64,000 bases of DNA from Chitinophaga pinensis. Lineage in GTDB: Bacteria > Bacteroidota > Bacteroidia > UKL13-3. The position numbers and the translations under genes were made by a program. Each line of letters opens with the position of its first letter. Position 1 is the stretch's first letter. Location of the stretch: the NCBI GenBank assembly GCA_945870425.1, contig CAMBSD010000003.1, forward strand, positions 62,001 through 126,000. Direction: 5' to 3'. Below are positions 34,759 through 45,772 of this stretch, one piece after another. Under the pieces are notes generated by a model. It worked only from the letters and a program-made list of their open reading frames with translations. It did no database searches and had not been told where the DNA came from.

Positions 34759-36525
34759 TTATTCGATAACTAATTTAACGTTAGCTGATTGATTCAAGTT
34801 GTTTGTAATATTGATCATATAAACACCTTGTTTCAAATCTTCTTTATCAATACGAAGAGTCGATAAATCATAGTTTTCAATAGTTCTCACAACACGTCCA
34901 GTTACATCCATCATTATTACATTATGTAATTTAGCAGCATCATTAAATTCAACTACCGTGAATGTGCTTGTAGGGTTTGGATATAATTTAACTAGATTAG
35001 AGATATTGGCTAACTCAGAAACACTTGAGCTAGGAACAAAACCAGCATCGCAGCTATTCCACAATTTGCTGATAGTTACATCAGTTGCAACTGTTCTTAC
35101 ATAGGCTCTGTTAAATCCACCAACACCGTTGGGCTCAACACAAGGAGTTGCAGTTGAGTCATCTAGAGGCTCACCAGTACCAGCAGCTTTTGGATCGCCA
35201 TTGCTGAAACGATAAGCTAATTTACCTGGGCAGATTGAATCGATTGTTACAGTATAAATACCAGGTTTACCTGTTATCTGTGTCATTTCTTTAGCTCCAT
35301 CTTGCCATTGTGGTTTAGTGAAATCACCCATTAAATATATTTTGCTTGCTGGAGGTGTTACAGTTTTAGTAAAATCAACAATGAAAGTGATTTTTGATGG
35401 GGCTGGTTTGCTTGGGCAATTTCCAACCACTCTAGAGTTAAAACAAGTTATTGGGGTTGTATCATTTTTAGCCAAAGTTAGAGTTCTATTAGAACCACCT
35501 TCCCAATTTGTATTGCCATTTTTGTGGAAACGATATTTGAAACTTACTTCACCTGAATCTAAATCTGCAACTGTTATTGAATAAACACCAGTTGAACCAA
35601 CTTTACTCATTTTTGAACCAGCACCAAAACCAGTTAATTTAGCGCCTGCACCTGCTACTGTTACTGAATCGAAACCTCCATCACAATCTGAACTACTCAT
35701 GTCAACTTGGAATGTTAATGCATAAGTAGGAATTGGAGCTGTGGGACAAGCAGTACAAGAACCAAAACAAACTTTAGCTAATGCAGTTGATGCGCTAGCA
35801 GCTTGGAAAAAACGGTTTTGATTTCCTCCACCTTTTTGACAAGAAGAAGGAACCGATTCGCTTGTAGGCCAATCGTTACCATTTAAATATTTCCATTCAA
35901 CACCAGCCGTTGTATCAACATAGGCGATGTATTCATAAACTTTATTTGAACCAAATAAATTAACCATTCTAGTTTCATTAGGTTTCCAATTTCCTGAAGC
36001 TCCATTTGAACCTTGGAAATCACCAGCAATATAAACACCATTAGCACTTACCGCAGTTTCCTTTTGTAAATCTACAGCGAAACGTAATGCAATTTTACCA
36101 GCAGGTGCTTCTCCACCAAATAAAATAGCAGGTAAAATAGTTGTATCATTTTTTAATGAATCAATATAAGCCCAACGATTACCGTTTTGTCCACCGTTTG
36201 CAGCTGATTCAACTTTTGAAATGGCTGGAATAGACTCTTCTCCTGGTCCCCAGTTGTTATCATTAATGATTTTGAATTCATAAACAGCCATTGCTGGAAT
36301 ATCAACAACTACTGAATAAATATTTCCAGAACCACCATTAGTCATAGCAGTCTCGTTTGGTTTCCAATTATCTGAAGCACCTGCTGCTTTTTGAAAATTT
36401 CCTGCAATGTGTACTCCATTAGGACTGATTGTTTTTCCAGTCATATCAACCTGGAATTTAACTTTCTTAGCAAACAAACCGCTTGTTGCGGCTAGTGCTA
36501 CTGACATTAGTAAATATTTTTTCAT
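34759..36525 (-). CDS. Secreted multi-domain carbohydrate-binding-like protein with T9SS sorting domain
   Basis: This 588-residue protein has a signal peptide (MKKYLLMSVALAATSGLFA). Four successive beta-sandwich modules start KVKFQVDMTGKTISPNGVHIAGNFQ (~20), RFAVDLQKETAVSANGVYIAGDFQ (~148), TFQVDMSSSDCDGGFDSVTVAG (~270) and TFIVDFTKTVTPPASKIYLMGDF (~380). They contain W-K-P-N-E-T and related motifs similar to starch-binding CBM20/CBM48-like folds. The C-terminus (LVKLYPNPTSTFTVVEFND to SANVKLVIE) is a T9SS sorting domain. There is no catalytic domain. It diverges from a GH13 amylase and is probably a surface starch-binding protein; the ligand is inferred from this context. Confidence 0.82.
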   Translation of the reverse strand: MKKYLLMSVALAATSGLFAKKVKFQVDMTGKTISPNGVHIAGNFQKAAGASDNWKPNETAMTNGGSGNIYSVVVDIPAMAVYEFKIINDNNWGPGEESIPAISKVESAANGGQNGNRWAYIDSLKNDTTILPAILFGGEAPAGKIALRFAVDLQKETAVSANGVYIAGDFQGSNGASGNWKPNETRMVNLFGSNKVYEYIAYVDTTAGVEWKYLNGNDWPTSESVPSSCQKGGGNQNRFFQAASASTALAKVCFGSCTACPTAPIPTYALTFQVDMSSSDCDGGFDSVTVAGAGAKLTGFGAGSKMSKVGSTGVYSITVADLDSGEVSFKYRFHKNGNTNWEGGSNRTLTLAKNDTTPITCFNSRVVGNCPSKPAPSKITFIVDFTKTVTPPASKIYLMGDFTKPQWQDGAKEMTQITGKPGIYTVTIDSICPGKLAYRFSNGDPKAAGTGEPLDDSTATPCVEPNGVGGFNRAYVRTVATDVTISKLWNSCDAGFVPSSSVSELANISNLVKLYPNPTSTFTVVEFNDAAKLHNVIMMDVTGRVVRTIENYDLSTLRIDKEDLKQGVYMINITNNLNQSANVKLVIE

Positions 36526-36645
36526 ATTTTTTTTGTTTAATTTAATGTGAGCAATTTATAAATTTTACAGAATATTTATACACTCAATTATAAAAATATT
36601 TGTTGAATGATGTATTTTTACAATCAAAATCAGTACAATAATTTC

Positions 36646-39600
36646 ATGAAAAAGTTAAAAAATAACATTGTTAAATGCCTATTTGCCCCAATTTTTAGTT
36701 TAGTTTTTTTTCAATCTTTTGGTCAAACTGTGACCATGTCACCCACTTTTGCCACTTCCGATGATAACAATGTTGTTTTAACTTATGATGCATCCCAAGG
36801 AACAACAGGTCTATTGGGAGAATCAACAATTTATGCTCATACAGGCGTAATAACAGACAAAAGCACTTCAAGCAGTGATTGGAAATATGTGATTACGGGT
36901 TGGACTACCAATTTACCTAAAGCTTTATTAACAAGAATAGGCACAAGTAATCAATATACCTTGAATATCGGTAATATTCGTAGTTATTATGCAGTTCCCG
37001 CAGGTGAGAAAATTCTTAAACTCGCAATGGTTTTTAGAAATGCAACTGGAGCTAGAGAAGGCAAGGGTGTTGGAGGTACTGACATATTTGTGGATGTTAA
37101 CCAAGGAACCTTTCAAGTGAAAATTTTAACACCAACTAAGGCAACCTATTTCTTAAGTTCAGACAATGTTTCTATTAGTGCCTTTTCATCAACTAAATGC
37201 AATTTGACATTATATGCCAACGGAAATCAATTGAATTCGCTTTCAAACGATTCTACCATTTCATATAGTGGACTTATGAGTAATATTGGAACAGGTAAAG
37301 TGCAATTGGTGTTAAAGGGAACATCGGGTTCATTTACTGCCTACGATACAACATATATTGTAAACAGGCCAGGCGGTAATGTCTCAAATCCGCCATCTGG
37401 GATAGTAGATGGTATAAACTATATTAATGATAATACGGTCACACTTATGTTATATGCTCCCAATAAAAATTTTGTATTCGTATATGGTGATTTTAACAAT
37501 TGGGAATTAGATCCAACATATATGATGAATCGCACTCCTGATGGTAGTCGATATTGGATTACCTTGAATGGATTGCAAAAAGGAGTTGAATATGCTTTTC
37601 AATATGTAATTGATAATGAAAAATTGAAAGTTGCAGATATTTATTCGGATAAAATTCTTGACCCATTTAATGATAAGTGGATCAATAAAAACAATTTAGT
37701 TATCTATTCAAATTTAAAGCCATTTCCGGAGGGAAAAACCACAGATCCAGTTTCCATTTTTCAAACGGGACAAACGCCATATAATTGGCAGTTTTCAAAT
37801 TACAACAAACTCAGGTCTGATAGATTGGTAATATATGAACTATTGTTGAGAGACTTTTTAGCAACTCACGATTTTAAAACTTTAACAGATACAATTGATT
37901 ACCTCAAAAACTTAGGTGTAAATTGTATAGAATTAATGCCAGTTAACGAATTTGATGGAAACGAAAGTTGGGGATATAATCCTAACTTCTACTTTGCACT
38001 AGATAAATATTATGGAACAAAGGATGATTACAAAAGATTCATTGATGTGTGCCATAGTAAAGGAATTATGGTTGTTATGGATATTGTGCTGAACCAATCT
38101 TGGGGATTAAATCCTCAAGTGAAAATGTATTGGGATGCAGCTAATAACAGACCCGCTGCGAATAATCCTTGGTTTAATCAAGTACCTACCCATCCTTTCA
38201 GCCCAGGTTATGACTACAATCACGAAAGTCAAGCTACTAAAGACTTTGTGGACAGGGTTATCAAATATTGGGTAACTGAATATAAAATTGACGGATATAG
38301 ATTTGATCTATCAAAAGGATTTACCCAAAAAAATACAGGTAGTGACGTTGCAGCATGGGGCGTTTACGACCAAAGTAGAGTTAATATTTGGAATAGAATA
38401 AGAACTGAATTTGTGAAAACTTGCCCTGATTGTTATATGATATTGGAGCATTTAGGAGAAAACAGTGAGGAGAAAGTATTAGCCAACGCTGGTTTCTTGC
38501 TTTGGGGTAAAATGACAGAGCAATATAATCAAATAACCATGGGTTATTCTGCCAATTCAGATATCAGTAGTGGAAATTACAAGAACCGTCAATTTACTTT
38601 CCCTAATTTGGTAACTTATGCTGAAAGTCATGATGAAGAGAGGCTTATGTATAAAAATTTAACTTTTGGAAATAGTGCAGCTAAGGATTTAAATACCGCT
38701 CTGAAAAGGACCGAAGCAGCTATGGCCATGTTAATTCCTTTGAAAGGACCAAAAATGTTATGGCAATTTGAAGAATTAGGTTTTGATAAATCAATATTTA
38801 GTTGCGGTGATGGTAGTGTTCCAACTCCATACGGAAATGATAAATGTAAAACAGATAATAAGGCACCCACATGGAATTATCAAACCATACCAGCTAGAAA
38901 AAACTTGTATAATGCTATTTCAAAATTAATAGCATTGAAAAAATATTCGACAATGGAAAGTGATAATTATAGCTATGATGCTTCTGGTACTGGTAAATTT
39001 TTAAAAGTAACGGGCGATACCATGAATGTAATTATTGTAGCCAACTTTGATATAAATTCTTTAAACATAAAGCCTCAATTTCAAAATAATGGTTGGTGGT
39101 ATGATTATATGACTGGTGACTCAATTAATGTTACATCTGCTGATTATAATATTGCATTGAGTGCAGGAGATTACAAAGTTTATACAAGTAAAAATCTTAA
39201 TAAAAATGTAACTATCGATAATCTAAATATTGATAATTCAACCTTGTCAATTAAATCGACAGCGGTTGACACTTCAATAATTTTAACCAGTAACAGATCT
39301 TGGGTTATAAGTAATGCTAATAATTGGGTAACCATCACTTCTATGTCGGGTTCGGGAAACACAAAATTAGGTATTAGTGTAGCCGCTAATACTGCTCCAA
39401 TTTCAAGAACTGCAAACATTAATATTCAAGCTGGTTCGGTATATAAACAATTACAAATAAATCAATTAGGCTACTCTGGTATAGACAATATAGAAAAAGA
39501 AGTATTTGAAATTTATCCTAATCCATCAAATAATGGAAAATTAAGTGTACGATTATTAGAAAAAAATAATTCTCCCTTTAAATTAGCTGTTTATGATATA

Positions 39601-39765
39601 GTGGGCAAAGAAATTGCTGTTTTTGAAAATGAAAAACTTTATATTAGTGGGGGTGAAATAATCGAATTGGATTTGTCAAATACTGTACAACGCAAAAGTG
39701 GATTGTATTTTATTAAATTGTTCTACGAAGAAGGAACTTATTTAGAAAAGATATTAATTCAATAA
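36646..39765 (+). CDS. Secreted GH13 alpha-amylase-family glycoside hydrolase with BACON and T9SS domains
   Basis: The start ATG 36646 gives 1039 residues with a signal peptide (FAPIFSLVFFQSFGQT); the ATG at 36607 is less suitable. N-terminal beta domains include a CBM48/E-set-like module (VFVYGDFNNWELD). The GH13 barrel starts near residue 380. It has the nucleophile Asp in DGYRFDLSKGF (~553), acid/base Glu in ILEHLGEN (~600) and Asp in AESHDEER (~662). A BACON-like module (SNRSWVISNANNWVTITSMSGSG) lies near 880 and a T9SS sorting domain ends the protein (FEIYPNPSNNGKLSV to YLEKILIQ). It should degrade alpha-glucans at the cell surface. A susCD pair follows on the same strand. Confidence 0.95.
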   Translation: MKKLKNNIVKCLFAPIFSLVFFQSFGQTVTMSPTFATSDDNNVVLTYDASQGTTGLLGESTIYAHTGVITDKSTSSSDWKYVITGWTTNLPKALLTRIGTSNQYTLNIGNIRSYYAVPAGEKILKLAMVFRNATGAREGKGVGGTDIFVDVNQGTFQVKILTPTKATYFLSSDNVSISAFSSTKCNLTLYANGNQLNSLSNDSTISYSGLMSNIGTGKVQLVLKGTSGSFTAYDTTYIVNRPGGNVSNPPSGIVDGINYINDNTVTLMLYAPNKNFVFVYGDFNNWELDPTYMMNRTPDGSRYWITLNGLQKGVEYAFQYVIDNEKLKVADIYSDKILDPFNDKWINKNNLVIYSNLKPFPEGKTTDPVSIFQTGQTPYNWQFSNYNKLRSDRLVIYELLLRDFLATHDFKTLTDTIDYLKNLGVNCIELMPVNEFDGNESWGYNPNFYFALDKYYGTKDDYKRFIDVCHSKGIMVVMDIVLNQSWGLNPQVKMYWDAANNRPAANNPWFNQVPTHPFSPGYDYNHESQATKDFVDRVIKYWVTEYKIDGYRFDLSKGFTQKNTGSDVAAWGVYDQSRVNIWNRIRTEFVKTCPDCYMILEHLGENSEEKVLANAGFLLWGKMTEQYNQITMGYSANSDISSGNYKNRQFTFPNLVTYAESHDEERLMYKNLTFGNSAAKDLNTALKRTEAAMAMLIPLKGPKMLWQFEELGFDKSIFSCGDGSVPTPYGNDKCKTDNKAPTWNYQTIPARKNLYNAISKLIALKKYSTMESDNYSYDASGTGKFLKVTGDTMNVIIVANFDINSLNIKPQFQNNGWWYDYMTGDSINVTSADYNIALSAGDYKVYTSKNLNKNVTIDNLNIDNSTLSIKSTAVDTSIILTSNRSWVISNANNWVTITSMSGSGNTKLGISVAANTAPISRTANINIQAGSVYKQLQINQLGYSGIDNIEKEVFEIYPNPSNNGKLSVRLLEKNNSPFKLAVYDIVGKEIAVFENEKLYISGGEIIELDLSNTVQRKSGLYFIKLFYEEGTYLEKILIQ

Positions 39766-39860
39766 AATAGGAAAGTGATTTATGAAATTGTCGCATTTTG
39801 AAAGTAATTAAGTCAGAGAATTTCATATCCAAAAACAAATTAGATAAACAATTGAAATAT

Positions 39861-42800
39861 ATGAGGAAACAATTACTAATAATGCTGCTTGCCTTTTTTG
39901 CTTTAGGTAAGGTGTTTGGGCAAAGTATCAAAGGTCGAGTTGAAGATAACAAAAAAGAACCTGTTATTGGCGCAACGGTATTGATTGAAGGAACAAAACA
40001 AGGGGCTGTGACAGACGCATTAGGTGCATTTGAAATAAAAAATATTACACCTGGCGATTACAAATTAAAAATATCAGGTGTTGGTTATGTAACCACATTC
40101 CGTGAAGTAGCGGTAACAGCAAATGGAGGTAATGTTTTAGTAAGCATAAAAACAGATACTAAATTGCTAGATGAGGCAGTTGTGGTTGGATATGGTGTTC
40201 AAAGGAAGCGCGAAGTAACTGGTTCTGTAGGCAAAATAACCGGTAAGGAATTAAATGATATGCCTGTTCCAAGTTTTGAAAGTGCCTTGCAAGGTAAATT
40301 AGCGGGTGTTGCAGTAACAACGGGTAGTGGACTTGCTGGTTCTGCTGCTATAGTAAGAATTAGAGGGGTGGCTTCCATAAGTGCAGCAGGTGATCCTTTA
40401 TATGTTGTGGATGGAATCGCTGTAAACCAAGATTATTCAAGTTTAGGTAATGGAGGTGGTTTCAATCAAAATCCATTGTCATCACTAAATCCAAATGATA
40501 TTGAATCTATAGATGTGTTGAAGGATGCAGCTGCTACATCTATTTATGGATCTAGGGGAAGTAACGGTGTAATTTTAATTACCACCAAAAGAGCAAAAGG
40601 AAATGGGTTGGTTATTAATTATGATGGTCAAATTGGAACATCATCCCCAACAGCATTGCCTAATATGACTAATTCACAGCAATTCCTTCAATTATATAAA
40701 GAGGCTTGGATTAATGATGGTAATACTGGAAATCCTGATTTGAAGGCAGGTGGTGTAGCAATGACTTGGGACCAAGCTGTAAAAAGCGGAAATAATACCA
40801 ATTGGTTAGATTATACCACAAGAACGGGTGTTAAACAACAACACAATATCACCATTCAAAAAGGAAGTAAATATGTTAGAGCAAGTGGTGTATTTGGATA
40901 TTCTACAAATGAAAGTTTTTTAGTTGGTAATAGCTTTGATAGACTTTCAGGTAGGTTGAATATGGATTTTCAAATCACTAAAAAATTATCAGCTACATTA
41001 AGTTCATCATATTCTCAAGGCACAAATAATAGGGTGTATAGCGGTTGGTCTGGAGGCTTCGGTCAAGTAATGTCATCTGCCTTACCTATTTATCCTGTTA
41101 GGAATGCTGACGGCAGTTATTTCTTATTCCAAAACTCAAGTGGAGGTCCAAATAATAATAACCCAGTGATGATTCAAGATTTATATCAATGGAGAACAAT
41201 AGAAAAGAAAGCTATTAATGGAATAACTTTCGATTGGAAACCTATTAAAGATTTAACACTTAAAGCAAATGGAAATTATGATTATACTGATTTATCTGAT
41301 CAATATTTTGCACCACAAAACCTATTAAAAAAGCTTGATCCAACTATTGGAGGTATAGATACAATACCAGGATATGCATATGGTAATAGCACTTATACAA
41401 ATAATTACAACTATTTGCTACAAGCCAACTATTCTTTGGATGTCAACAAAACTAATAAATTTGATTTTATGGTTGGTCATGAATATCAAAGAACACATGC
41501 AAACTTCTTTAATCAGCAAATAATATCTTCAAAACCACTGTGGAGTGATCAAACTGCAACCATCGCTAATATTAATAATAACCCGAGAAATAATGGAGGT
41601 GTTATTGACCGTATCACTGCCTTTTTGGGTTATTTTGGAAGGGTAAATTATAATTTTAAAGATAAAGTTTTTTTACAAGTTAGCGGTCGTGTTGATGGCT
41701 CTTCAAAGTTTGGTGCCAATAATAGGTATGCATTTTTACCAGCTGCTTCAGTTGGATATATTTTAACTGAAGAAAAATTTTTGAAGGGTAATAAATTTAT
41801 CAATTTTTTAAAATTTAGATACAGTTATGGTAAGTCTGGTAATTCTGCTTTTGAAGATTATGCAAGATTTGGCACTTTCTCTGCTGGAAATAACACTTCG
41901 AATTACCATGGTAACAATATATTGTTTCCAACAAAACTTGAAAATAAAGACCTTAGATGGGAAACCTCTTGGACATCTAATTACGCCATTGATTTCGGTT
42001 TGTTTAATGATAGAATTAATGGTACGGTTGAGTATTATGATAAGAAGACAGAAGATGTTATTATGAATTTAACGATTAGCTCAACCAACGGCTTTGGTTC
42101 ATATTATGATAATGTGGGAGGAATAAGAAATCGTGGGGTAGAGTTTAATTTGAATACTAAAAATACAGTTGGAAAGTTCAAATGGTCGACCAATTTTAAT
42201 ATTGCACGAAATGTGAATGAGCTAACAAGTACGGGTTCTTATACTCAAGATGCAGTTAGTGGTGGTACAAATGATACCAGAGCAGTAGTTGGTTCTCCTG
42301 TTGGGACTTATTACATCGTTAGATTTAGTCGTGTAGATCCAACTGATGGTCGACCAATTTATCTTGATAAAGATGGCAAAGAAACTAAAACATGGGACGT
42401 AAATAATAGGGTGCCAGTAGGAGCTATTTTACCTGATGCTGTTGGGTCGATCACCAACCGATTTGAGTACAAGAATTTTGATTTGAGTTTTATGGTTTAT
42501 TTTCAGTTAGGAGGTAAAATTTATGACGCTTCTGCTAAGAGACAGATGGGTGTAACTTCGTTTTGGAACTATAGAACAGATATTGCCGACAGATGGCAAA
42601 AACCTGGTGACATAGCCACATTCCCTCGTTTAACACTTGATCCTAAAACGTATGGATTGCCTGATTATTGGCAATATAATACCACCATGTGGTTATATGA
42701 TGGAACTTTTGCTAGATTAAGGAATGTAACTATTGGTTATAGAATTCCAAACTCTGTTACAAAGAAAATGCATATTGCATCTGCAAGAATTGCCATTATT

Positions 42801-42968
42801 GGAACAAACCTTCTTACATTTACCAAATATCCCGGTTTAGATCCAGAAATTGCCCGTGATGGTGAAGGCAGTATTAATGCATCAAGAAATATGCAATCTC
42901 AAGGTACCTATTACCTTAACGCACCTCAAGAAAAAACCTATACATTTCAAATATCTATTAATTTTTAA
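39861..42968 (+). CDS. susC: SusC/RagA-family TonB-linked outer-membrane protein
   Basis: The start ATG 39861 gives 1035 residues (MRKQLLIMLLAFFALGKVFGQ signal). The N-terminal carboxypeptidase-regulatory-like domain (SIKGRVEDNKKEPVIGATVLIEG) is followed by the SusC plug motif EAVVVGYGVQRKREVTGSVGKI and LYVVDGIAVNQDY, DIESIDVLKDAAATSIYGSRGSNGVILITTK. A ~22-strand barrel ends in an aromatic residue (QISINF). It imports oligosaccharides with SusD using TonB energy. The SusD gene follows after 11 bases. The neighbouring GH13 implies maltodextrin or another alpha-glucan. Confidence 0.97.
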   Translation: MRKQLLIMLLAFFALGKVFGQSIKGRVEDNKKEPVIGATVLIEGTKQGAVTDALGAFEIKNITPGDYKLKISGVGYVTTFREVAVTANGGNVLVSIKTDTKLLDEAVVVGYGVQRKREVTGSVGKITGKELNDMPVPSFESALQGKLAGVAVTTGSGLAGSAAIVRIRGVASISAAGDPLYVVDGIAVNQDYSSLGNGGGFNQNPLSSLNPNDIESIDVLKDAAATSIYGSRGSNGVILITTKRAKGNGLVINYDGQIGTSSPTALPNMTNSQQFLQLYKEAWINDGNTGNPDLKAGGVAMTWDQAVKSGNNTNWLDYTTRTGVKQQHNITIQKGSKYVRASGVFGYSTNESFLVGNSFDRLSGRLNMDFQITKKLSATLSSSYSQGTNNRVYSGWSGGFGQVMSSALPIYPVRNADGSYFLFQNSSGGPNNNNPVMIQDLYQWRTIEKKAINGITFDWKPIKDLTLKANGNYDYTDLSDQYFAPQNLLKKLDPTIGGIDTIPGYAYGNSTYTNNYNYLLQANYSLDVNKTNKFDFMVGHEYQRTHANFFNQQIISSKPLWSDQTATIANINNNPRNNGGVIDRITAFLGYFGRVNYNFKDKVFLQVSGRVDGSSKFGANNRYAFLPAASVGYILTEEKFLKGNKFINFLKFRYSYGKSGNSAFEDYARFGTFSAGNNTSNYHGNNILFPTKLENKDLRWETSWTSNYAIDFGLFNDRINGTVEYYDKKTEDVIMNLTISSTNGFGSYYDNVGGIRNRGVEFNLNTKNTVGKFKWSTNFNIARNVNELTSTGSYTQDAVSGGTNDTRAVVGSPVGTYYIVRFSRVDPTDGRPIYLDKDGKETKTWDVNNRVPVGAILPDAVGSITNRFEYKNFDLSFMVYFQLGGKIYDASAKRQMGVTSFWNYRTDIADRWQKPGDIATFPRLTLDPKTYGLPDYWQYNTTMWLYDGTFARLRNVTIGYRIPNSVTKKMHIASARIAIIGTNLLTFTKYPGLDPEIARDGEGSINASRNMQSQGTYYLNAPQEKTYTFQISINF

Positions 42969-42979
42969 TTCAAACAGAA

Positions 42980-44371
42980 ATGAAAAAAACGATATATATA
43001 ATTATACTAGTTTGTACTATTCTGAATAGTTCATGCGATAAGCTAATTGACCTAAATGCAAAGGATTTAAACCTATTTATTCCTGAAGAAGCTTTGAAGA
43101 AACCTGAAGATATGCAGGCTTTGTTAAATTCATGTTATGATGCTACAGCCAATATGATGAACGGACGTTTTCAGATAGCGAATGATTTATTGGGAGACGA
43201 TATTGTCCCACTATTAAATAATGGAAACTATCTTGGAATTTACAATAGAAACAGTAACCAATTTAATGGTGTAATAGGTGATCTATATTCTCAACCTTAC
43301 TTTTCTATATACAGAATTAATGTGATGGACCTGTATTATAATCAAATAGCTGGTTTGTCGGCTGATGACATTACACGAATGAAAGGTGAGGGAAGTTTTT
43401 TGCGTGCACTTTGTCATTTCGAAACGGTGAAATTATGGGCGCAACCTTGGGGATTTACAAATGATAATTCGCATCTTGGTATTATTTTAAGGGAAAGAGC
43501 TAAAAACGAGGCAATAGCTAGATCAAGTGTCTCGGCTTCTTTTAATTTAATAATTAATGATTTATTGTTTGCGATAGATAATTTGCCAGAGACTAACGGT
43601 GTATATGCTGATAAAATGTCCGCAAAAGCATTGTTGGCAAAAGTTTACTTTCACATAGGTAGATACAATGAAGCATTGCCTTTGCTTAATGATGTTATTA
43701 ACTCAAATAAATATACTTTAAGTGATAGTTTAAATAGATATGATAGAATTAAAACTAAATCTGAAATTGTTTTTGGTTTTGTGGCTGATAGCGCTTTTGA
43801 AATGCAAAGAGGGGATGCTTTCAGATCTAACTATACAACAAAAGGAACTGCACAAATGGGAATTTCTAATGATTTATTTAACCTCATACACTCCGATACA
43901 ACCGATAGAAGAAATAACCTTTTAAAAGTAGTTGTTAAGGATGGGGTTCAAACCATCCTTACCACAAAATTTGATTTATCTACAGTGTTTGCATGCCCTT
44001 ACATTACACTTACAGAATTGTTGCTAACAAGAGCAGAATGTTTAGGAATGTTGAACAACAATATAAGTCAAGGTGTAGATGATTTAAATAGAATAATCAA
44101 ACGTGCTTATGGCGAATCTACAACTCGTGCTTTGAACTCTAGCACAGATGCAATTGCCTTATTATCAGAAACCAGATTGCAAAGAAGAATAGAAATGTTT
44201 TGTGAGGGCGACCGAGTGCAACAATTTAAACGTATCGCTGTAGCTTCTCAAAATAACCCTCAAGAAATTAGAGGCGCTAAATGGAATTGCCCTGGCATGA
44301 TATTACAGTTTCCTGGTTCGGAGGGTACTTCAGCTAATTTTATTTATAATCCAACCACAGTTTGCAATTAA
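42980..44371 (+). CDS. susD: SusD/RagB-family substrate-binding outer-membrane lipoprotein
   Basis: The 463-residue protein has a lipoprotein signal (ILVCTILNSSCDKL), so it is lipidated and surface-exposed, capping SusC. It shows SusD features: an N-terminal helical segment with ALLNSCYDATANMM, RIKGEG-like MKGEGSFLRALCHFETVKLWAQPWG, TPR-like helices (KALLAKVYFHIGRYNEALPLLNDVI), LLLTRAECLGMLN and the C-terminal ETRLQRRIEMFCEGDRVQQFKRI. It lies 11 bases after susC and overlaps no neighbour, as the next gene starts at 44377. Substrate specificity is inferred from the adjacent amylase. Confidence 0.95.
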   Translation: MKKTIYIIILVCTILNSSCDKLIDLNAKDLNLFIPEEALKKPEDMQALLNSCYDATANMMNGRFQIANDLLGDDIVPLLNNGNYLGIYNRNSNQFNGVIGDLYSQPYFSIYRINVMDLYYNQIAGLSADDITRMKGEGSFLRALCHFETVKLWAQPWGFTNDNSHLGIILRERAKNEAIARSSVSASFNLIINDLLFAIDNLPETNGVYADKMSAKALLAKVYFHIGRYNEALPLLNDVINSNKYTLSDSLNRYDRIKTKSEIVFGFVADSAFEMQRGDAFRSNYTTKGTAQMGISNDLFNLIHSDTTDRRNNLLKVVVKDGVQTILTTKFDLSTVFACPYITLTELLLTRAECLGMLNNNISQGVDDLNRIIKRAYGESTTRALNSSTDAIALLSETRLQRRIEMFCEGDRVQQFKRIAVASQNNPQEIRGAKWNCPGMILQFPGSEGTSANFIYNPTTVCN

Positions 44372-44376
44372 TTTTT

Positions 44377-44898
44377 ATGAAAAAGATAACATATATTATT
44401 TTATTATGCCTAAGCGTCACCGCTTGTAAAAAGGATTTTTACAAACAGGATTTAGGCACAGATATTTATCCATCTTCACTTAATTATAAAAATATTCAAG
44501 GGAAATGGAATTTAAACTCGGTAGTTCAAACCGATGAGAAATCCTTAATCAAAGAGTCATTAATCATTACGGATTTTTTTGACAATTCTAGCAAGCCAAA
44601 CATTAGTTTTTTGATTGATGGTAACGATACCACTTTCTCAGTTGATACAGCCGGTTTGCTAATTAACTATTTTGGGGATATTTCAGGAAAATGGAGCTTT
44701 GATAATTATGAATTTCCTAAAAATATTAACCTAACAACCACTAAAGGAAATCAGGTGGTTTTACCTATCTCATCTAACCTAATTTCTTCAGCATTGCCAA
44801 GTGTAATAAGTTTTAAGCAGACACTTACTTGCCCTGATCCAGATGATCCAACAAAAACGGTAAACACCATGTCATTTTCAATTAACTTAACTAAATAG
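44377..44898 (+). CDS. Lipoprotein of the Sus locus (lipocalin-like candidate)
   Basis: The start ATG 44377 gives 173 residues (MKKITYIILLCLSVTACKKD) with a lipobox Cys near residue 17; the ATG at 44362 would overlap susD. The IQGKWNLNSV motif and following beta strands (GKWSFDNYEFPKNINLTT) resemble lipocalin-like DUF5004-type lipoproteins of Bacteroidota. Its position directly after susD is where surface glycan-binding SusE-type proteins are encoded. It is much shorter than SusE, so any sugar-binding role is inference. Confidence 0.75.
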   Translation: MKKITYIILLCLSVTACKKDFYKQDLGTDIYPSSLNYKNIQGKWNLNSVVQTDEKSLIKESLIITDFFDNSSKPNISFLIDGNDTTFSVDTAGLLINYFGDISGKWSFDNYEFPKNINLTTTKGNQVVLPISSNLISSALPSVISFKQTLTCPDPDDPTKTVNTMSFSINLTK

Positions 44899-44902
44899 AA
44901 AC

Positions 44903-45772
44903 ATGAGAAAGTACGTATTTTTATTACCATTATTATTAATAACCCAATTTGTATTTGCTCAAGCCACTTGGGTGGAACCTAAAAATCCTGATGTGAATAA
45001 AAAAATCAGAATTTACTGTGATTTATCCAAAGCCACCGCCACTACAGCAGATAAAATGAAAGCAGATCCAATTGGACCATACTACATTTGGACTTGGAAA
45101 CCTACTGAGGCTGAAAGAGCTGATACGCTAGCAAATGGAACCGGTGACAAAGCTTGGAAAAATTCGAATGATAGGTTAATGATGATAAAAGATGATACCA
45201 AAGGTGCAAACGTTTGGTATTATGAAATGATACCAGTTCAATTTTATAATTGTGATGCAGCTAAAGTTTATAGTGATGGAATATCCTTCTTAGTAAAACC
45301 TAAAGATGGTGGAGGATATGGCGACCCAGATGTAAAAACTGAAGACTTCAGTGTTACCATTGATCCACCAAAAACAGACAGAGGGGTAATTTATCCAATT
45401 CCTGCCACTGTATATTCAGATCAATTAACATCTATAATATATGACAACCCAGTTGAGAAGAAGATTAGCATGCAAAATCTAAAGGCCGGAGATGTATATG
45501 TTTGGATTAATGCAACTATTAAAGATACTGCTTCCGGTAAAATCCGAACCTATGCCCCTAATACGTTGTTTAGCGTTCAGGATAATTCAAAATTAATGAT
45601 GAAAAAGGATTCAAATGGTAAATTTCGATTATCTATTATTCCAAATCAGTTCTTTGGAATAACTTCAAAAGAAATTATTACCCAAATTGATGCAATTGTT
45701 AGAAAGAAAGATTACCTAGGAACTGATGATAGAAGCGATACTCAAGCTAAAATCATTATTGGATGTCCTTAG
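44903..45772 (+). CDS. Exported protein with a duplicated domain, last gene of the Sus locus
   Basis: This 289-residue protein has a type I signal peptide (LLPLLLITQFVFAQATW). It lacks both a lipobox and a T9SS sorting domain, so it should be periplasmic or released. The two halves are related: NDRLMMIKDD..WYYEMIPVQFYN..ISFLVKPKDGGG (~residues 85-145) matches NSKLMMKKDS..FRLSIIPNQFFG..DAIVRKKDYLG (~215-275). I do not recognise the family. Both halves look like beta-sandwich modules that could bind a glycan. It is 4 bases after the lipoprotein gene and ends in a strong terminator, so it completes the susCD operon. Confidence 0.78.
   Translation: MRKYVFLLPLLLITQFVFAQATWVEPKNPDVNKKIRIYCDLSKATATTADKMKADPIGPYYIWTWKPTEAERADTLANGTGDKAWKNSNDRLMMIKDDTKGANVWYYEMIPVQFYNCDAAKVYSDGISFLVKPKDGGGYGDPDVKTEDFSVTIDPPKTDRGVIYPIPATVYSDQLTSIIYDNPVEKKISMQNLKAGDVYVWINATIKDTASGKIRTYAPNTLFSVQDNSKLMMKKDSNGKFRLSIIPNQFFGITSKEIITQIDAIVRKKDYLGTDDRSDTQAKIIIGCP

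Follow-up and report, generated by a model that had tools for sequence, protein, structure and literature searches.

SusE and SusF, which are encoded after SusD and have a beta-sandwich repeat architecture, carry lipid anchors of their own. In BoGH13A-Sus, a surface amylase of B. ovatus, the N-terminal CBM98 was reported to bind maltooligosaccharides and the CBM48 was reported not to bind them (PMC11633381). In the B. theta utilisomes for levan and dextran, SusCD is joined by extra glycan-binding and enzyme subunits, which are lipoproteins; neither 'disulfide' nor 'disulphide' was found in the part of the utilisome text that was searched (PMC7618045). Here we describe DUP, an exported protein of 289 aa with tandem CBM98-like domains, encoded from an ATG start (44903..45772, + strand) in a window of 64,000 nucleotides from Chitinophaga pinensis. 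DUP resembles SusE and SusF in its position after SusD, its repeat architecture and its linkage to Sus genes, and the locus resembles the utilisomes in providing SusCD with further subunits, but DUP itself lacks the lipid anchor carried by SusE/SusF and by the utilisome subunits. It shares the starch pathway with BoGH13A-Sus, and its likeness to the CBM98 of that enzyme is a homology traced through the N-terminal domain of the window amylase. In BoGH13A-Sus, the CBM98 is a single module heading an enzyme, whereas DUP consists of two diverged copies and stands alone, with no enzyme attached.

The operon runs in the order amylase-SusC-SusD-DUF5004-DUP, with intergenic gaps of 92, 11, 5 and 4 bp. 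DUP is its last gene, as the earlier note had stated; the next gene lies on the opposite strand and presumably encodes a ribosomal-L9-like protein, judged by eye. The first gene (36607..39765, +) encodes a GH13 alpha-amylase with a CBM48, a BACON domain and a T9SS tail. It is a homologue of BoGH13A-Sus (PDB 8dge, E 7.4e-102) and also of 8xx9 (E 5.8e-162). Its N-terminal CBM98-like domain (36724..37104, +) is homologous to both halves of DUP. The SusC TonB-dependent transporter (39858..42968, +) and the SusD-like lipoprotein (42980..44371, +) are followed by a lipocalin-like lipoprotein of 173 aa (44377..44898, +), the proposed anchor of DUP, which is a member of DUF5004/Lipocalin_4 in Pfam (35.9 bits against a cut-off of 21.6). 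On the other side of the amylase, a divergent gene (34759..36525, -) encodes a secreted protein in which CBM48/CBM20 matches and three matches of the X25 type accompany a T9SS tail, and its homologues flank many of the 39 homologous loci.

Linkage to SusCD is conserved among homologues. SusD lies beside the DUP homologue in all 39 loci with enough sequence and SusC in 38 (L058 has no SusC match), while DUF5004 was detected by BLAST in 38 of 39 and by profile in the remaining one (L047). The earlier note had named homologues mostly unlinked to Sus loci as evidence against its reading; since the homologues are linked, this objection fell away. An amylase-like match was present within 9.5 kb in 30 of the 39 loci and missing from nine, where any BLAST match of at least 240 aa to the window amylase was counted and tail-only matches may be included. 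Among 180 loci with DUP-like genes, 119 genes were distinct (candidates longer than 420 aa were excluded), and 117 of them have a DUF5004-like gene directly upstream. The two exceptions are L200, which has no upstream sequence, and L204, which has one domain plus a T9SS tail. Leaving out these two together with L080 and L191, where a contig end truncates the gene, gives 115 complete pairs. Of 395 genomes sampled from the class, 28 have a full-length relative (E below 1e-40). At E<=1e-5 the number rose to 37, and the extra nine were mostly domain-1-like N-termini of long proteins. Relatives occur in 44 of 64 genomes of the order, in 62 of 199 genomes of another order (E<=1e-15), and in 4/42, 4/10 and 4/13 genomes of further sets. 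Nothing in plasmid records matched DUP.

DUP begins with a signal peptide of the SPase I type (44903..44959, +) cleaved before Q20, a boundary placed by eye; Q20 is invariant in 115/115 homologues. None of the 115 homologues has a lipobox at the cleavage site, and the lipobox-like strings found in three of them all lie inside the signal peptides. DUP had no match to a T9SS tail model at E<=1, whereas the operon amylase does have such a tail. These results agree with the earlier description of DUP as an exported protein without lipobox or T9SS signal. Sec export by itself ends in the periplasm. With its plain signal peptide and absent anchor, DUP could be a soluble maltodextrin-binding protein of the periplasm, placed below SusC and free of any covalent partner, with its terminal cysteine bonded internally or unbonded; we regard this as unlikely in view of the cysteine pattern described below. 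The earlier suggestion of a new class of periplasmic or released glycan-binding protein is thus retained in part: DUP stands as a non-lipidated glycan-binding candidate at the SusE/SusF position, but 'periplasmic or released' is one option only, and anchoring in trans may be another.

The two halves of DUP repeat each other. The motif LMMxKD stands at residues 92-97 and again at 231-236, and IPxQF at 110-114 and again at 246-250; none of 200,000 shuffled versions of the mature protein had each motif twice. When 115-row profiles of the halves were compared by hhalign, the probability was 97.5 (E 6.9e-12). The repeat that the earlier note saw in the motifs is therefore one of homology, beyond motif likeness. 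Domain 1 (residues 20-155; 44960..45367, +) is CBM98-like. Domain 2 (residues 158-287; 45374..45763, +) is a diverged domain resembling CBM98 and the C-terminal part of DUF4961, and does not have the tryptophans of domain 1. The Pfam model DUF4961 (PF16328) matched residues 172-269 with 23.3 bits, under the gathering cut-off of 27.1. Six relatives pass this cut-off, and the model matches 15 of the 16 members of A2 at E<=0.1. The second half of DUP lies on the fringe of DUF4961. An NCBIfam search with DUP returned nothing, and the family search gave no match to a SusE/SusF family.

Profile comparison also links both halves to the N-terminal domain of the amylase. Against the amylase N-terminal profile, half 1 scored 97.3 (E 2.6e-11) and half 2 scored 96.9 (E 1.7e-10). 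Control profiles from related amylases (Ig-like linker, CBM48 and BACON domains) scored 0.3, 0.1 and 0.2 against half 1, and 4.1, 12.8 and 0.3 against half 2. These scores, set against the controls, show that both halves and the amylase N-terminal domain belong to one family. Half 1 compared with flavobacterial amylase N-termini reached 99.5 (E 9.1e-23), and with smaller profiles half 1 scored only 15.0 against the amylase. An hmmsearch with the amylase N-terminal domains found residues 32-131 of BoGH13A-Sus in 8dge (E 1.2e-7), a segment that we take to be the CBM98 on our reading of 'N-terminal'. The amylase N-terminal profile matched this segment with 97.9 (E 6.1e-13), while the single 8dge sequence scored only 48.1 against half 1 and 34.8 against half 2. 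Homology of the DUP halves to the CBM98 of BoGH13A-Sus, through the amylase N-terminal domain as intermediate, is well supported by these comparisons. In the genomes of relatives, the DUF4961 model likewise matches the N-termini of proteins of about 930-1100 aa, including the window amylase. 'Unrecognised', as the earlier note called the protein, no longer fits: its domains are relatives of CBM98, and its second half is on the fringe of DUF4961. The homology to the amylase domain also ruled out an unknown fold, a toxin or an enzyme.

Direct searches of the PDB with DUP did not arrive at BoGH13A-Sus. Profile searches with DUP or its first half gave nothing significant: P0001 produced one chance match (E 0.66), A2 none, and A3 and A4 chance matches. 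The structure model of DUP has a mean pLDDT of 61. Its tail, residues 271-289, is of low confidence, as expected of a flexible tail. In VIA-align, which agrees weakly with the kinship, the best rows for half 1 of this model were 8dge and 8dl2, with Z 6.7 and 6.3 over 105-107 residues, and the value for 8dge (rmsd 3.2, 105 residues) falls below the level that VIA-align calls telling. For half 2, antibodies appeared from Z 5.8 downwards. Foldseek with the DUP model found no match at E<=0.001.

Conservation differs between the two domains. Across the 115 complete pairs, W63, W65 and W85 (codons 45089-45091, 45095-45097 and 45155-45157, +), G79, S88, L130, K132 and G136 are invariant in domain 1, whereas domain 2 has no invariant tryptophan and keeps Y180 and P167. 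The mean frequency of the top residue is 0.55 in domain 1 and 0.44 in domain 2. From the invariant tryptophans and the lower conservation of domain 2, we infer that domain 1 is the glycan-binding half and that domain 2 is structural. The same observations bear on the idea that DUP, as a subunit of a SusCD-DUF5004 complex, serves structure or assembly and that its CBM98-type domains no longer bind glycan. The loss of the tryptophans from domain 2 is in keeping with it, but domain 1 retains all three in 115/115 and is the better conserved domain, and the same module is found on amylases and sugar dehydrogenases, so that we consider a purely structural role quite unlikely. Domain 1 also heads flavobacterial amylases, and it is N-terminal on two glucose/sorbosone dehydrogenases (L195:3-1790, -, and L196:2-1648, -; Pfam GSDH E 3.1e-44 and 4.4e-44), which lie beside a gene that we take by eye to encode a peptide-release-factor-3-like protein. 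In L204 (890-1630, -), the encoded protein consists of a lone domain-1 module and, after it, a T9SS tail; it is a small secreted binding protein, possibly attached to the surface. A carbohydrate-binding role fits a mobile module riding on alpha-glucan enzymes, and maltodextrin or starch binding by DUP, taken alone, is probable. In one homologous locus (L043:2195-2947, +), the operon amylase has shrunk to about 250 aa without a catalytic domain, in which a CBM98-like domain is followed by an apparent remnant of the sorting tail.

The upstream DUF5004 lipoprotein, which was missing from the earlier note, carries a conserved cysteine that matches one in DUP. The penultimate residue of DUP, Cys288 (45764..45766, +), is present in 112/115 homologues, near-invariant within an unconserved tail. 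In DUF5004, Cys17 (44425..44427, +), the lipid anchor, is present in 115/115, and Cys152 (44830..44832, +), the proposed disulfide partner, in 108/115; in 97/115 the mature protein has exactly one cysteine besides that of the lipid. This match of near-invariant cysteines on the two proteins is new. After addition of a second set from DUF5004 searches, with L218-L220 left out as copies of the first set, 153 pairs were compared: both cysteines were present in 136, that of the partner only in four, that of DUF5004 only in none, and neither in 13. The Fisher test gave 1e-15, uncorrected for kinship. The four pairs with the DUP-side cysteine only are all from one genus, and the 13 pairs lacking both come from five families. 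Within the second set, both cysteines are present in pairs with DUF4961 proper and both are absent where the partner is a long tandem-domain protein. The C-terminal cysteine is also missing from 27 of 29 flavobacterial DUF5004-type loci without a DUP-like partner; of the other two, L217 has a cysteine near its end and L232 was not properly read.

On a tree that carries long-branch warnings, the cysteine state changed four times in DUF5004 and three times in the partner. Two independent pairs agree, none opposes and one shows no difference (sign test p 0.5). The two cysteines changed together in only two to three independent events, and the tree-based test is non-significant. Separate DUP-DUP and DUF5004-DUF5004 homodimers with no mixed bond are compatible with this test result, and either homodimer would likewise conserve a lone terminal cysteine. 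The joint absence of both cysteines in 13 pairs from five families, their joint presence in the DUF4961-proper pairs and the fact that the DUF5004 cysteine never occurs without that of its partner speak against homodimers, and we regard them as improbable. These data also bear on the soluble periplasmic alternative. In 60/115 DUP proteins, the cysteines beyond residue 22 are even in number, and the terminal one could therefore pair internally in many members (it is the sole one in three); this and the absence of both cysteines from 13 of 153 pairs favor that alternative. On the other hand, it does not account for a terminal cysteine kept in 112/115 in an unconserved tail, nor for zero pairs with the DUF5004 cysteine alone.

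Other partners for the terminal cysteine were considered within the operon. In SusC, no cysteine column reaches 30% conservation among 37 sequences. SusD has C437 and C462, each conserved in 39/39, the one nearer the C-terminus about 25 residues after the other; these probably form an internal pair. SusC and SusD were rejected as disulfide partners of DUP on these grounds. A low-confidence model puts Cys152 of DUF5004 at the end of strand 143-153, just ahead of a hairpin turn, and PDB searches with DUF5004 and with DUF4961 proper gave nothing significant. Given this position and the disordered tail of DUP, a Cys288-Cys152 bond is sterically plausible, no more. A DUP-DUF5004 disulfide is a tentative assignment, to which we give rather less than an even chance. 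It would not be essential to the unit, since 13 pairs do without both cysteines.

We propose that DUP is a non-catalytic maltodextrin- or starch-binding subunit of a Sus-type starch-uptake complex, which arose by duplication of the CBM98-type module that also heads the operon amylase. Maltodextrin or alpha-glucan would be captured by domain 1, which keeps the invariant tryptophans. Domain 2, having diverged to serve in linkage or structure, would dock together with the flexible C-terminal tail on the lipoprotein DUF5004. In most lineages, the lone Cys288 would form a disulfide with Cys152 of DUF5004, which would anchor DUP in trans. DUP and DUF5004 would then make one lipid-anchored glycan-binding unit beside SusCD, on the outer or the periplasmic face of the outer membrane, replacing SusE/SusF. 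This combined reading, of a maltodextrin-binding DUP anchored through the DUF5004 disulfide beside SusCD, falls in our judgment just short of an even chance. A SusE/SusF-type binding protein built from CBM98-like modules would in itself be new.

DUF4961 proper (e.g., L261, 356 bits) offers a close comparison. Like DUP, it follows a DUF5004 gene and has the same penultimate cysteine, but its N-terminal domain is different, and seven aligned members have a conserved, lipid-site-like Cys26; DUP itself scores under the family cut-off. The disulfide-tethered DUP, and the pair of DUF5004 with DUF4961 or DUP, may tentatively be regarded as a general, unnamed SusCD component across Bacteroidia, a possibility that we hold with less than even confidence. 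In a literature search with most subscription journals outside it, DUF5004 did appear and no mention of DUF4961, PF16328 or PF16395 was found; the disulfide met in the excerpts on SusD-linked glycan-binding proteins lay within an enzyme. The proposal provides a hypothesis of function and anchoring for two unnamed Pfam families, DUF4961 and DUF5004, that are adjacent in starch loci, and if true, it would account for the working of a Sus locus whose binding protein has no lipid anchor. A second long protein with a CBM98/DUF4961-like N-terminal domain, in a frame of about 1067 codons, is encoded on contig 6 of the source genome (L027, L065).
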